From Hyphomicrobiaceae bacterium (GTDB lineage Bacteria; Pseudomonadota; Alphaproteobacteria; Rhizobiales; Ancalomicrobiaceae): a DNA stretch of 64,000 nucleotides. A program made the translations under genes and the position numbers. A model generated the notes under the pieces. That model was not told the origin of the DNA. It was given only the letters and a program-made list of their open reading frames with translations, and ran no database searches. Positions 15,529 to 31,386 of the stretch are shown here, in pieces. Position 1 is the stretch's first letter; each line of letters begins with the position of its first letter. The DNA is taken from contig JAEULV010000048.1 of NCBI GenBank assembly GCA_016793065.1, forward strand, positions 1 through 64,000. The letters run 5' to 3'.

Positions 15529-16068
15529 TCAGCGGCCGCCGAAGGCCTGTTTCAGCAGGTCGAGCTGGTTGGCGACCGGGTTCTCGGCGGCGGCCTTGGC
15601 GGCTTCCTCGCGCTTTTGATAGATGGCGTCGTCGAGGCGCTTGATGCGCTCGGCGAGGCGGATCGAGCGTTCGATAAGGCCGGTGAGCGACTGCGGCAGG
15701 CCGTCCCAGCCGGGACCCTGACGGGAGGTCGACAGGGTGTCGAGCTTGACCTTGGTCTTTTCGAGGCCGGCCTGTTCCTGGCTCATCTCGCCTTCGTTGA
15801 CGGCGCGCTGCAGCAACAGCCAGGACGCCAGCTGCATCAGCCGGGTGGTGAGGCGCATGGACTCGGTGGCATAGGTGAGCGAGGCGGCACGGGAGAGGTC
15901 GCGCGACTGGGCGCGGCCGTCGCCATCGAGATAGGCGGCGGTCTCCTCGACCAGGGCCATGCCTTCGCGGAACAGCGTCTTGAAGCTCTCGGAGCCGGCC
16001 AGACGCTGCGAGAAGTCGACCGTCCGGTCGCCGCCAAGTTCCAGATCGCCCCAGGTCTCGTCGGTCAT
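15529..16068 (-). CDS. rcdA: DUF1465 family protein, RcdA-like (regulator of CtrA degradation)
   Basis: The protein of about 179 aa is all-helical, with the block TVDFSQRLAGSESFKTLFREG followed by AAYLDGDGRAQSRDL. This matches my knowledge of the DUF1465/RcdA family. In Caulobacter RcdA is an adaptor that, with CpdR and PopA, brings CtrA to the ClpXP protease. Whether this orthologue does so in Hyphomicrobiales is inference, but ctrA itself lies at 22499. I chose the ATG at 16068 because GAGG lies 8 nt upstream; the in-frame ATG at 16074 has only 2 nt spacing. The C-terminus (QKREEAAKAAAENP...) is flexible. A terminator follows. Confidence 0.78.
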   Translation of the reverse strand: MTDETWGDLELGGDRTVDFSQRLAGSESFKTLFREGMALVEETAAYLDGDGRAQSRDLSRAASLTYATESMRLTTRLMQLASWLLLQRAVNEGEMSQEQAGLEKTKVKLDTLSTSRQGPGWDGLPQSLTGLIERSIRLAERIKRLDDAIYQKREEAAKAAAENPVANQLDLLKQAFGGR

Positions 16069-16375
16069 ACGCATTACCTCACGTCCGCCTGTCGGTCGTC
16101 GAACCCCGATGGTTCATGGTCGGCCGACCTGCCCATTTCGTCAATACACTGCAGGCGCGGTGCCAAGATGAGCAGGAAAGGCGATCCTACACCACGCATT
16201 GGCACGACGCGGTTAACGCCGAGGCCTTTTTGCGCGCGATCCCCGCTTTTCTGGTTATCCCGCCCGGCCGTCGCGTTCCTGCCGCCCGCGGCCCCCTTCA
16301 ACCACGCCGACATGGCCAAGTCGTTGTCGGAAAAGCTAGAATTTAGCGAAGTTCGATTGCTCGAATGCACGCGGA

Positions 16376-16470
16376 CACAAAAAAAGAGCCGCGGAGGGCG
16401 GCTCTGAAGTGAATAACAGGGAGGCGTCGGAGCGACGAAACGTCGCTCGAAATCCAGATGACTGGACACC
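16376..16470 (-). ncRNA. Candidate small RNA with two CCUCC motifs and an intrinsic terminator
   Basis: Read on the minus strand, the stretch has a hairpin GAGCGACG-TTT-CGTCGCTC (16448-16430). An unpaired segment containing GCCTCCC comes next. The end is a strong terminator, AGAGCCGC-CCTCC-GCGGCTCT followed by TTTTTTT (16405-16378). No open frame ends before the terminator, and the next upstream minus gene has its own terminator at 16611-16647. Unpaired CCUCC segments can pair with Shine-Dalgarno sequences and recall alphaproteobacterial sRNAs of the alpha-r14/CuckooRNA type. The 5' end (about 16460-16470) is guessed from the CtrA-box-like site at 16491. Confidence 0.5.
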
Positions 16471-16490
16471 ATGTTAATAGCGCGGAAAGC

Positions 16491-16505
16491 TTAATGAAGA
16501 CTTAA
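16491..16505 (-). promoter_or_regulatory. CtrA-box-like site upstream of the candidate small RNA
   Basis: On the minus strand TTAA-N7-TTAAG, one mismatch from the CtrA consensus. It lies 20-40 nt before the inferred 5' end of the small RNA, where an activator would sit. Confidence 0.4.
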
Positions 16506-16610
16506 TCCAGATCAAGAAATCGCGCGATGTGGGCCGATATCGGACGAGTACGGGCCATTTTGGCACAATGAAAGAGGCGGATTCGCCGTTCAAATGTTGT
16601 TGAACACATG

Positions 16611-16647
16611 AAAAACGCCCGCCGGTCGGTGAACCGGGCGGGCGTTT
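16611..16647 (-). terminator. Rho-independent terminator of the 86-aa hypothetical gene
   Basis: An 11-bp perfect stem AAACGCCCGCC / GGCGGGCGTTT with a 13-nt loop is followed on the minus strand by a T-run. It is about 95 bp past the stop at 16743. Confidence 0.8.
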
Positions 16648-16742: not shown

Positions 16743-17003
16743 TCAGGCGGCGAAACGATCGACCAGGGCGGTGATGGCGGCGTCGCGCGCAGCGGTGGAG
16801 GTGTAGGTCTCGCGATCGAAGCGATCGGCGAAGAACTCGACCTTGTAGCCGGCGTTGAACTCGACGACGACTTCGCCATTGCCGAGCGAGGCGACCGAGG
16901 CAACCTTCGGCGCGGCGGCAAACTTCGAGGCCAGCAGGTCGCCCATCTGGCGAACGGTCATGGCCGACGTCGGAACCTCAGTTTGAACGATCTCGAAATC
17001 CAT
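16743..17003 (-). CDS. Small hypothetical protein (86 aa)
   Basis: I do not recognise this family. The product begins MDFEIVQTEVPTSAMTVRQ, is acidic-to-neutral, and has no signal peptide or membrane segment. The alternating hydrophobic stretch EVVVEFNAGYKVEFFADRF suggests beta strands between two helices. The start at 17003 has AAGGA 5 nt upstream; two upstream in-frame ATGs (17009, 17018) would put the ribosome site inside or against the start. A clear terminator downstream and a good ribosome site argue that it is a real single-gene transcript. Confidence 0.7.
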   Translation of the reverse strand: MDFEIVQTEVPTSAMTVRQMGDLLASKFAAAPKVASVASLGNGEVVVEFNAGYKVEFFADRFDRETYTSTAARDAAITALVDRFAA

Positions 17004-17474
17004 TGTCATCCTTCCCATCCCGAACCATTTCGTGAGTTCGAAAGTGACACAACTCGTCTTGCAGCCGGGTTAAGCCAGGATCTCCGGCATCAACGGCACA
17101 GCGGCGACAGGCTCCAGAAGGGCGCCGATCATGGCCGCAGCATGGCGATCCTGGCCGGAGCGGCGGGGGTTTTCGGCGGGATCGGCCGTCTTTGGCCGCG
17201 GCAGGGCGGCGAGGGCCAGCTTGTGGCGGAATGCCGAAACTCAGAAAATATTGTTTAAAATCAAATGTTTATTTTAGGGGTTCGGATGCGGCGCCAGCGA
17301 TCCGCCTGGCAGCGCGAGCCGTCGCAGGGAATTGTTAACCCTCGATTCGGATCGCCCGCTTTTCCACCGGCCGGCCCGGCACGGCCGGCGGGAGGATATC
17401 GATCGCGATGAATGATGCCGCCGCGCGGGGGCGAGGCGGCGTTGACGGTTGGACTGTGCGGGGCGACGGCCGGC
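17004..17474. other. Intergenic region without a supported gene
   Basis: About 470 bp separate the 86-aa gene from the GH19 gene. There is an AT-rich patch at about 17240-17280 (ATATTGTTTAAAATC). A lone GTTAAC half-site lies near 17333. It must contain the promoter of the 86-aa gene. I see no RNA gene or repeat. Confidence 0.45.
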
Positions 17475-23955: not shown

Positions 23956-24093
23956 GACGGCACGGTCCTGTCGACGGGCAAATGGTCGCCAGCCGGTACG
24001 CAGGGCGAATGACAGGGCGATGACGGGCGGATGAAGCGGTCGTGTCCGCATCCGCCCCTTTGCAACGATCATATGACGCGCTATATCCCTTCC

Positions 24094-24195
24094 TGTCTCA
24101 CGGGGTGCCCGCGCGCGGGCTGAGAGGTGGTGCGTTACGGCCATCGACCCGACGAACCTGATCCGGGTCATGCCGGCGGAGGGATTGAGCAGTGC
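24094..24195 (+). promoter_or_regulatory. TPP (thiamine pyrophosphate) riboswitch
   Basis: All THI-element hallmarks are present in order: GGGGTGCCC at 24102-24110, a short GC stem, GGGCTGAGA at 24117-24125, ACCCGACGAACCTGATCCGGGT at 24147-24168 with the conserved GAACCTGATC core, and CATGCCGGCGGAGGGA closing the aptamer. It lies about 100 nt before the thiB start, so high TPP should switch off thiBPQ. The expression platform lies at 24195-24289; its mechanism was not resolved. Confidence 0.95.
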
Positions 24196-24289
24196 AGCAG
24201 CTCCAAGCCTTTTCGCATCGTCTTGACGCGCCCTCGGGCGCGGACCCGGTCTTTTGGCTCATCCGACAGGACCCCGAAAGGACCGTGGA

Positions 24290-29730: not shown

Positions 29731-29746
29731 TTAAGGCCTCGTTAAC
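29731..29746 (+). promoter_or_regulatory. Perfect CtrA-box consensus upstream of the sigma-54 response regulator
   Basis: TTAA-N7-TTAAC matches the CtrA consensus exactly, oriented toward the regulator gene and ending 84 bp before its start. A GATTC (CcrM-type) site lies at about 29784 between the box and the gene. Confidence 0.6.
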
Positions 29747-29829: not shown

Positions 29830-31386
29830 ATGTTGCCGCGTCTTCTCGTTGTCGACGATGATCCCGTGCAGCGCAGGCTTCTTGAAGCGTGCGTCACGCG
29901 GCTCGGCTACCCGTCGCGGGTGATCGACAACGGCGCGGAGGCGGTGCGGATCCTGACGTCGGCGGAGGGCGCGGATTTCGCGCTGGTGATCCTCGATCTG
30001 GTGATGCCGGATCTCGACGGCATGGGCGTGCTGTCGCGGCTGCGCGACGCGCAGGTCAATGTGCCGGTGATCGTGCAGACGGCCAATGGCGGCGTCGATG
30101 TCGCCGTCAATGCCATGCGCGCCGGGGCGTTCGACTTCGTCGTCAAGCCGGTGTCGCCGGAGCGGCTGCAGGTTTCCATCGCCAACGCGCTGAAGGTCGC
30201 CTCGCTCGAAGGCGAGATCACCCGCATCCGCCGCTCGGCGGAAGGGACGCTGACGTTTCGCGATATCGTCACCAAGAGCCATGCGATGGATCGGGTGATC
30301 CGGCTCGGCGAGCGCGCCGCCGGCTCCAACATCCCGATCCTGATCGAGGGCGAGAGCGGCGTCGGCAAGGAGCTGATCGCGCGGGCGATCCAGGGGGCGT
30401 CGGATCGGCGGTCGCGGCCGTTCGTGACGGTGAACTGCGGGGCGATCCCGGACAATCTGGTGGAGTCGATCCTGTTCGGCCACGAGAAGGGCGCCTTTAC
30501 CGGCGCGGTCGACAAGCATGTCGGCAAGTTCCAGGAAGCCCATGGCGGCACGCTGTTTCTCGACGAGGTCGGCGAACTGCCGCTGGCGGTGCAGGCCAAG
30601 CTGTTGCGGGCGCTGCAGGAGGGCGAGATCGATCCGGTGGGGGCGCGCAAGCCGGCGCGGGTCGACTTCCGGCTGATCTCGGCGACGAACCGGTCGCTGA
30701 TCGACATGGTCAAGGAAGGACGCTTCCGCGAGGACCTCTATTACCGCCTCAACGTCTTCCCGATCGGCATTCCGACGCTGCGCGACCGCAAGGACGACAT
30801 TCCCGAGCTGGTGCGGCACTTCATCGTGCGGTTCGCGGCGGAAGAAAAGAAGCGCAACGTCGTCGGCATCACGCCGGAAGCGATGGCGCTGTTGATGGCC
30901 TATGACTGGCCCGGCAATATCCGCCAGCTGGAAAACGCGGTGTTCCGCGCCGTGGTGCTGGCGGACGAGGCCTATCTCGGCGCCGACGAGTTCCCGCAGA
31001 TCCAGGCGCAGGTCGGCATGCTGCCGCCGCTCATCGGCAACAACGAGCCGATGATCGCGGTGCTCAATCCGCGCCAGTCGGGCGATGGACGGGCGGCCGC
31101 GTCGACCAACGCCGTGGCGGGCGGGCGCACCGGCTATTCGCCGGGACCGTCTGGTTTCTCGGCATCGGATCCGGCGCCGTTCGGCTTCATGCGCTCGCTC
31201 GACGACAAGGGACACGTGCGCGAGCTGGTGTCGATCGAGGCGGAGATGATCAAGCTGGCGATCGACCATTACGGCGGGCGGATGTCGGAAGTGGCGCGAC
31301 GCCTGGGGATTGGCCGGTCAACGCTTTATCGCAAGCTGAAGGACTATGGCCTGGAAGACACGGCGGCGATCGAAGCCGCCGAGTGA
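29830..31386 (+). CDS. Sigma-54-dependent response regulator (NtrC/DctD type)
   Basis: The 518-aa activator has a receiver domain (1-120) with D9-D11 acidic residues and phospho-acceptor D56 (LVILDLVMPDLDG), and an AAA+ sigma-54 interaction domain (about 145-380) with Walker A GESGVGKE near 174 and GAFTGA near 221. A C-terminal Fis-type helix-turn-helix (RMSEVARRLGIGRSTLYRKLKDYGLED) follows. A low-complexity Gly/Ser/Pro linker separates the last two domains. The start is ATG 29830 with GGAG 7 nt upstream. No sensor kinase is adjacent. A perfect CtrA box lies upstream, and L,D-transpeptidase and DUF882 genes follow, suggesting an envelope role. Confidence 0.92.
   Translation: MLPRLLVVDDDPVQRRLLEACVTRLGYPSRVIDNGAEAVRILTSAEGADFALVILDLVMPDLDGMGVLSRLRDAQVNVPVIVQTANGGVDVAVNAMRAGAFDFVVKPVSPERLQVSIANALKVASLEGEITRIRRSAEGTLTFRDIVTKSHAMDRVIRLGERAAGSNIPILIEGESGVGKELIARAIQGASDRRSRPFVTVNCGAIPDNLVESILFGHEKGAFTGAVDKHVGKFQEAHGGTLFLDEVGELPLAVQAKLLRALQEGEIDPVGARKPARVDFRLISATNRSLIDMVKEGRFREDLYYRLNVFPIGIPTLRDRKDDIPELVRHFIVRFAAEEKKRNVVGITPEAMALLMAYDWPGNIRQLENAVFRAVVLADEAYLGADEFPQIQAQVGMLPPLIGNNEPMIAVLNPRQSGDGRAAASTNAVAGGRTGYSPGPSGFSASDPAPFGFMRSLDDKGHVRELVSIEAEMIKLAIDHYGGRMSEVARRLGIGRSTLYRKLKDYGLEDTAAIEAAE

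Follow-up and report, generated by a model that had tools for sequence, protein, structure and literature searches.

A BjrC1505-family small RNA gene with a conserved CtrA-type promoter box upstream of rcdA in a Hyphomicrobiaceae bacterium

The minus strand of the window (the whole 64-kb stretch of DNA that was analysed) carries, just upstream of rcdA, a member of the BjrC1505 family of small RNAs, which is probably an independently transcribed sRNA, activated by CtrA, that blocks Shine-Dalgarno sequences. This is the reading that we favour; it builds on the family membership of the element, its structure, the conservation of its promoter box, the synteny with rcdA and the retention of that box where rcdA is not nearby. 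The Rfam model RF02356 (BjrC1505) matches the minus strand at 16512–16379 over its full length (model positions 1–140) with 67.4 bits and an E-value of 1.8e-10, the gathering cut-off being 50 bits, and a genome-wide search gives a single clear copy. Since the score is above the cut-off, the element adds a member to a known sRNA family and is not an orphan, contrary to the first-pass annotation, which had described an unknown and unannotated small RNA. The notion of a discrete sRNA gene, on the other hand, is backed by both the Rfam match and the conservation described below, and we regard it as confirmed, at the level of sequence analysis, that the element is a genuine small regulatory RNA gene of a catalogued family. 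The literature that we searched names BjrC1505 only in a list, and we found in it no function for the family and no description of either the CtrA box or the linkage to rcdA.

The first 45 bases of the RF02356 match are read as promoter and not as RNA, because the 5' part of the model contains TTAA-N7-TTAA: the Rfam model has a promoter box at its own 5' end, with the consensus UUuAC-ggccuAU-Uaac. The predicted sRNA is then about 89 nt long (16379–16467, minus strand), which agrees with the 85–95 nt previously proposed; its 5' end was placed from the box, a -10-like element and the first hairpin. Our own covariance model R1, which describes the transcript only and includes no promoter, matches 16380–16468 with 72.6 bits, and the 89-nt predicted RNA folds with a z-score of -5.8, none of 200 shuffled sequences being equally stable. 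It had also been claimed that no open frame exists here. Mechanically, a 132-aa minus-strand frame (16074–16472) and a plus-strand frame across the element can be listed, but neither is backed by alignment: the family alignment is indel-rich and RNA-like, so both frames are unsupported.

The predicted RNA consists of two hairpins, a C-rich core and a terminator. In hairpin 1 (16452–16467; GUCCAG-UCAU-CUGGAU), the five modelled pairs all change on both sides in the family and 97% of the cells are paired. Hairpin 2 (16430–16448; GAGCGACG-UUU-CGUCGCUC) has five of its six modelled pairs changed on both sides; its commonest loop in relatives is GCUCCUGUC, and CUCC occurs in the hairpin-2 region of 108 of 166 relatives, but the member in the window has lost the CUCC loop. 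The core, GACG-CCUCCC-UGUU (16415–16428), is presumed to be the Shine-Dalgarno-pairing loop of a weak hairpin. GCCTCCC is present in 165 of 166 loci, although GACGCCTCC served as the extraction anchor, which accounts for part of its invariance; where a locus was retrieved by Rfam alone, the core also occurs as GATGCCTCCCTG, as GACGCCTCACTG and once in a more diverged form. The intrinsic terminator (16378–16405; AGAGCCGC-CCUCC-GCGGCUCU followed by a U7 run) is found both by a terminator scan and by folding, and six of its eight modelled pairs change on both sides.

These features largely bear out the first-pass annotation. The terminator that it placed at 16376–16405 is recovered as an 8-bp stem at 16405–16385 with its T-run, and so are the GAGCGACG hairpin (16448–16430) and the GCCUCCC segment, described as unpaired, within an RNA whose fold is significantly stable. 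A second CCUCC is indeed displayed in the terminator loop, as had been noticed, but the importance attached to it is unsupported: among 101 representative family members, the one from this genome is alone in having it, so that it is not a family feature. As for the suggestion to check whether the CCUCC loops are conserved in related genomes, the core copy is (with the reservation about the anchor made above) and the terminator-loop copy is not.

The family set comprises 173 loci, collected by the Rfam search in relatives and in the class and, for named genomes, with a pattern of the core alone; 59 diverse transcripts were aligned to build the transcript-only covariance model. In 99 matches from 97 loci, 94.8% of the cells are paired and 17 of the 24 pairs show changes on both sides, a level which is reached by none of 500 shuffles. 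The cells changed on both sides number 161, against 24 in shuffles and 11–39 in slid controls. It is important to note that the alignment was fitted to its own model, which biases these values favourably; the margin is nonetheless large. Within the order, our model detects the RNA in 342 of 397 genomes, representing 125 of 141 genera; in the class, 65 of 385 genomes give a match. The closest named relative is an Ancalomicrobiaceae genome, whose locus on contig JARLIT010000097 (L128) includes 1 kb of the G010 locus without a single difference, G010 being of the same taxonomic family as the window. The weak class-wide matches lie on the same strand as rcdA and 0.2–6 kb from it (for example in G067, G153, G166, G178, G188, G270 and G297), and this placement supports both the matches themselves and an ancestral linkage to rcdA. 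In two loci (L054 and L055, in genomes G418 and G250) the sRNA is duplicated in tandem, the copies being 200 nt apart and preceding a diverged rcdA.

The promoter box, TTAA-GTCTTCA-TTAA (16491–16505, minus strand), is an exact TTAA-N7-TTAA, as had been claimed for a TTAA-N7-TTAA(G) site at 16491, and it is conserved as a CtrA-like promoter box in the family. Exact sites of this kind occur twice in the window, where dinucleotide shuffles predict 0.00. When one mismatch is allowed, the box precedes the core by 50–100 nt in 159 of the 166 loci (about 96%), compared with 1.3% in control windows of 50 nt taken farther upstream and 5% after mononucleotide shuffling; flanking controls as a whole give 1.3–1.6%. 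It is found in 111 of the 114 loci that were retrieved by the core alone, that is, where the box was not used in the retrieval, and in 95 of 101 non-redundant representatives. The 7-bp spacer is specific: when spacers of 3 to 13 are compared, it is seen in 111 loci and the next best in 52. Anchored on the box, the family logo reads TT(A/T)AC-N6-(A/G)TTAAGCTTTC, then a -10-like TTATNA that lies 14–15 nt after the start of the second TTAA, then hairpin 1, which begins 28–30 nt after that same point. In the window the -10-like element is TATTAA (16474–16479, minus strand), which may function as such. The family has, near -35, the conserved TTAA-N7-TTAA by which a CtrA-regulated promoter is recognised, and from this consensus we infer that CtrA would bind the box.

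The other exact TTAA-N7-TTAA of the window, at 29731–29745 on the plus strand, lies about 100 nt upstream of a gene (29830–31386, plus strand) for an NtrC-family, sigma-54-type response regulator. It is a possible second CtrA target, and by analogy the regulator might be functionally reminiscent of Caulobacter TacA. The window also contains a TPP riboswitch at 24091–24202 on the plus strand (68.5 bits).

Upstream of the box, on the same strand, a 91-aa gene (16743–17018) gives no family match in profile searches; it had been described as encoding 86 aa, which would hold only if an inner start were used. A terminator at 16611–16647 separates this gene from the sRNA: it is missing from a simple terminator scan, but it is supported by folding (-27 kcal/mol, z-score -6.0), in agreement with the earlier proposal. 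The outcome that the first-pass annotation had named as fatal to its idea, namely that the element represents no more than the terminated 3' end of the mRNA of the upstream gene, draws on the common strand and on the two terminators being 206 bp apart. We consider it very improbable. The terminator at 16611–16647 is strong and stands between gene and element, the conserved promoter box sits between that terminator and the RNA, and the upstream gene, which is not conserved beside the sRNA, is present in only 2 of 173 family loci; a conserved box next to an unconserved gene argues against the element belonging to the upstream mRNA.

Downstream, the same strand encodes rcdA (15529–16074; 181 aa), identified by NCBIfam NF051867 (227 bits), Pfam DUF1465 and the RcdA structure PDB 3ctw. 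RcdA is a ClpXP adaptor which helps to destroy CtrA. The linkage, overlooked in the first-pass annotation, is a property of the family: rcdA is the same-strand downstream neighbour in about 150 of the 173 loci, and of the approximately 23 others, about 8 end at a sequence edge. The gap between the terminator and rcdA ranges from 50 to 540 nt. In the window it contains a sigma-54-like promoter, TGGCACCGCGCCTGCA (16150–16165, minus strand; score 10 of 12), 91 nt before the rcdA start. A sigma-54-like score of at least 9 is reached in 41% of 145 sRNA–rcdA gaps, against 3.5% of shuffles and 5.6% of upstream controls, and a further CtrA-like box is found in 38 of these 145 gaps, against 3.4% in the control. 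The presence of a sigma-54-like promoter before rcdA in about 40% of the loci also suggests that rcdA is RpoN-dependent in many Rhizobiales.

The position of the element raises the alternative that it is the 5' leader of rcdA, in which case a CtrA-driven transcript would meet a conditional terminator (an attenuator) and the control of rcdA would be exerted in cis. That rcdA lies on the same strand within a few hundred bases in most loci is in favour of this idea, as are the control of rcdA by CtrA in Caulobacter (PMC8865702) and the several start sites of rcdA in three agrobacteria (PMC10469942). We nevertheless consider a leader unlikely. Fifteen loci without a nearby rcdA keep the box (15 of 15; 8 exact, 7 with one mismatch), the core and the terminator, even though the stems have diverged in several of them, and in three genomes (G081, G208 and G305) the rcdA homolog is 41–45 kb from the sRNA. 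The persistence of box and core in these loci argues for an independent trans-acting sRNA over an rcdA leader, and the unlinked copies speak against a leader function as the sole role. Moreover, the terminator is strong, no conserved antiterminator partner is seen, the length of the gap varies widely, and many rcdA genes have their own sigma-54-like or CtrA-like promoter past the terminator, which makes two transcription units likelier than one attenuated leader. Pairing of the sRNA core with the rcdA start was considered and discarded, the complements being mostly 4–7 nt.

A different alternative retains a trans-acting sRNA and supposes that it mainly titrates a protein, for instance a small RNA-binding protein that recognises motifs of the CCUCC type, instead of pairing with mRNAs. 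In its favour, the short single-stranded motif is invariant while the stems vary freely, and CCUCC-bearing sRNAs of alphaproteobacteria are reported to be linked to the RNA-binding protein CcaF1 (PMC10253847). However, most members clearly carry the motif only once, while RNAs that act by titration generally have it several times, and we find this possibility quite doubtful. What we retain is activation by CtrA together with repression by pairing to Shine-Dalgarno sequences, which is favoured because CCUCCC is similar to the anti-Shine-Dalgarno motifs found in AbcR and NfeR1. CtrA would bind the TTAA-N7-TTAA, which overlaps the -35 region, and transcription would start from about 16467; the RNA would end at its own terminator, at about 16379; and the weakly structured CCUCCC would pair with the purine-rich Shine-Dalgarno sequence of target mRNAs and lower their translation. 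The expression of the sRNA, its activation by CtrA, its mode of pairing and its targets are thus deductions. The gene would ancestrally lie beside rcdA, which in many relatives is separately promoted, so that the sRNA arm activated by CtrA would be encoded beside the adaptor for CtrA's own destruction. Of the overall interpretation proposed in the first-pass annotation, the sRNA gene, the unpaired or weakly looped CCUCCC and the CtrA-like box stand; the unknown RNA, the ar14 type (see below) and the role of the terminator-loop CCUCC do not.

Regarding targets, the start of ptsP in this genome (L245, G000:C50:44724-44740) has CAGGGAGGCGTCA just before the start codon, which is perfectly complementary to the sRNA core over 13 nt, and ptsP may therefore be a lineage-specific candidate target. 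In 29 relatives the ptsP start has at most 8 contiguous complementary bases; the 13-nt complement is confined to this genome, and ptsP was rejected as a target of the whole family. Genes for solute-binding proteins are common behind ACAGGGAGG, but they are equally common behind CAAGGGAGG, a permuted control (inspection of the protein starts by eye gives about 7 of 25 versus 9 of 26), so that this frequency reflects genes with strong Shine-Dalgarno sequences in general and transporter binding proteins were not kept as specific targets. Among the ptsP starts and the genes with Shine-Dalgarno complements that were tried, no conserved family-wide target was found.

The published data on CtrA can be read in this light. 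With rcdA as the anchor, a record labelled as a Sinorhizobium meliloti plasmid shows a diverged homolog just upstream of that gene. The homolog scores 38 bits with our own model, short of the Rfam cut-off, and has an exact TTAA-N7-TTAA, a UUUUUCUCCCUGUUUU core and a terminator as in the family; homologs upstream of rcdA are also found in Shinella and Methylobacterium. (The S. meliloti record, CP090106.1 (L463), is labelled as pSymB; at 3.7 Mb it is chromosome-sized and carries rcdA, and it is probably mislabelled.) ChIP-seq in S. meliloti places CtrA at the rcdA promoter region, while CtrA depletion leaves the expression of rcdA unchanged (PMC4433202), as expected if part of the site serves the sRNA. 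We suggest that some of this ChIP signal may come from the sRNA promoter; it is important to note that in S. meliloti, as in Shinella, another exact CtrA-type box lies nearer rcdA, in the gap that follows the sRNA, so that the signal need not stem from the sRNA promoter. In the three agrobacteria, rcdA has several start sites and its predicted CtrA box is further upstream than in Caulobacter (PMC10469942), which is also in favour of our reading. We found no paper, in the literature searched, that describes a CtrA-controlled sRNA upstream of rcdA.

A broader proposal, for and against which we see about equal weight, is that BjrC1505 is an sRNA activated by CtrA and widespread in the Rhizobiales/Hyphomicrobiales (present in 86% of the genomes sampled, with class-wide traces), ancestrally paired with rcdA, and forms a post-transcriptional output arm of CtrA beside the gene of its own adaptor, which would help to explain why CtrA binds at rcdA without affecting its expression. 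If this is true, a widespread sRNA becomes part of the bacterial cell-cycle circuit that has been studied best, both in symbionts and in free-living relatives, and its promoter bears on what the CtrA-bound sites next to rcdA do when rcdA does not respond.

Several known sRNAs resemble the one described here in part. The AbcR/mmgR RNAs (suhB, RF00519) block ribosome-binding sites via CU-rich motifs (PMC7143759), and they share with the window sRNA the layout CCUCCCU, ACUU, G+C-rich terminator; RF00519 aligns over the same bases with 21.1 bits, which is below its cut-off of 41, and the 5' part, the gene neighbourhood and the promoter all differ. NfeR1, which pairs at the start of ntrB and thereby silences it (PMC10746234), and the related ar14/cuckoo RNAs likewise display an anti-Shine-Dalgarno motif in loops, but they are multicopy and have three hairpins, each with CCUCCUCCC, whereas the window sRNA has one CCUCCC core and a non-conserved CCUCC. 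The first-pass annotation had pointed to this type by suggesting a covariance search with its models; the ar14 Rfam model gives no match at E-values up to 1 and the triple CCUCCUCCC is absent, so we rejected this membership.

Two other sRNAs are connected with the cell cycle. CcnA of Caulobacter is a presumed CtrA-activated sRNA whose C-rich loop pairs with cell-cycle mRNAs and which is not clearly found in symbionts and free-living relatives (PMC8959179). Unlike the window sRNA, it is located at the replication origin and has a CCCC loop; conversely, RF02356 has no match in Caulobacter vibrioides, though rcdA is present. EcpR1 of Sinorhizobium is a conserved rhizobial sRNA that acts on cell-cycle mRNAs (PMC4414408). 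It lies by divK-pleD, with the loop motif UCCGCCGCAUCU and a stationary-phase sigma-70 promoter; UCCGCCGCAUCU is absent from the 89-nt RNA, whose neighbour is rcdA. The closest comparison remains BjrC1505 itself, with which the window member has the hairpins, the CCUCCC core and the terminator in common, while differing from its relatives in a hairpin-2 loop that lacks GCUCCUGUC, in a G+C-rich hairpin 2 and in the CCUCC of the terminator loop. The family was already known; what goes beyond its Rfam entry is the conserved CtrA-type box and the linkage to rcdA.
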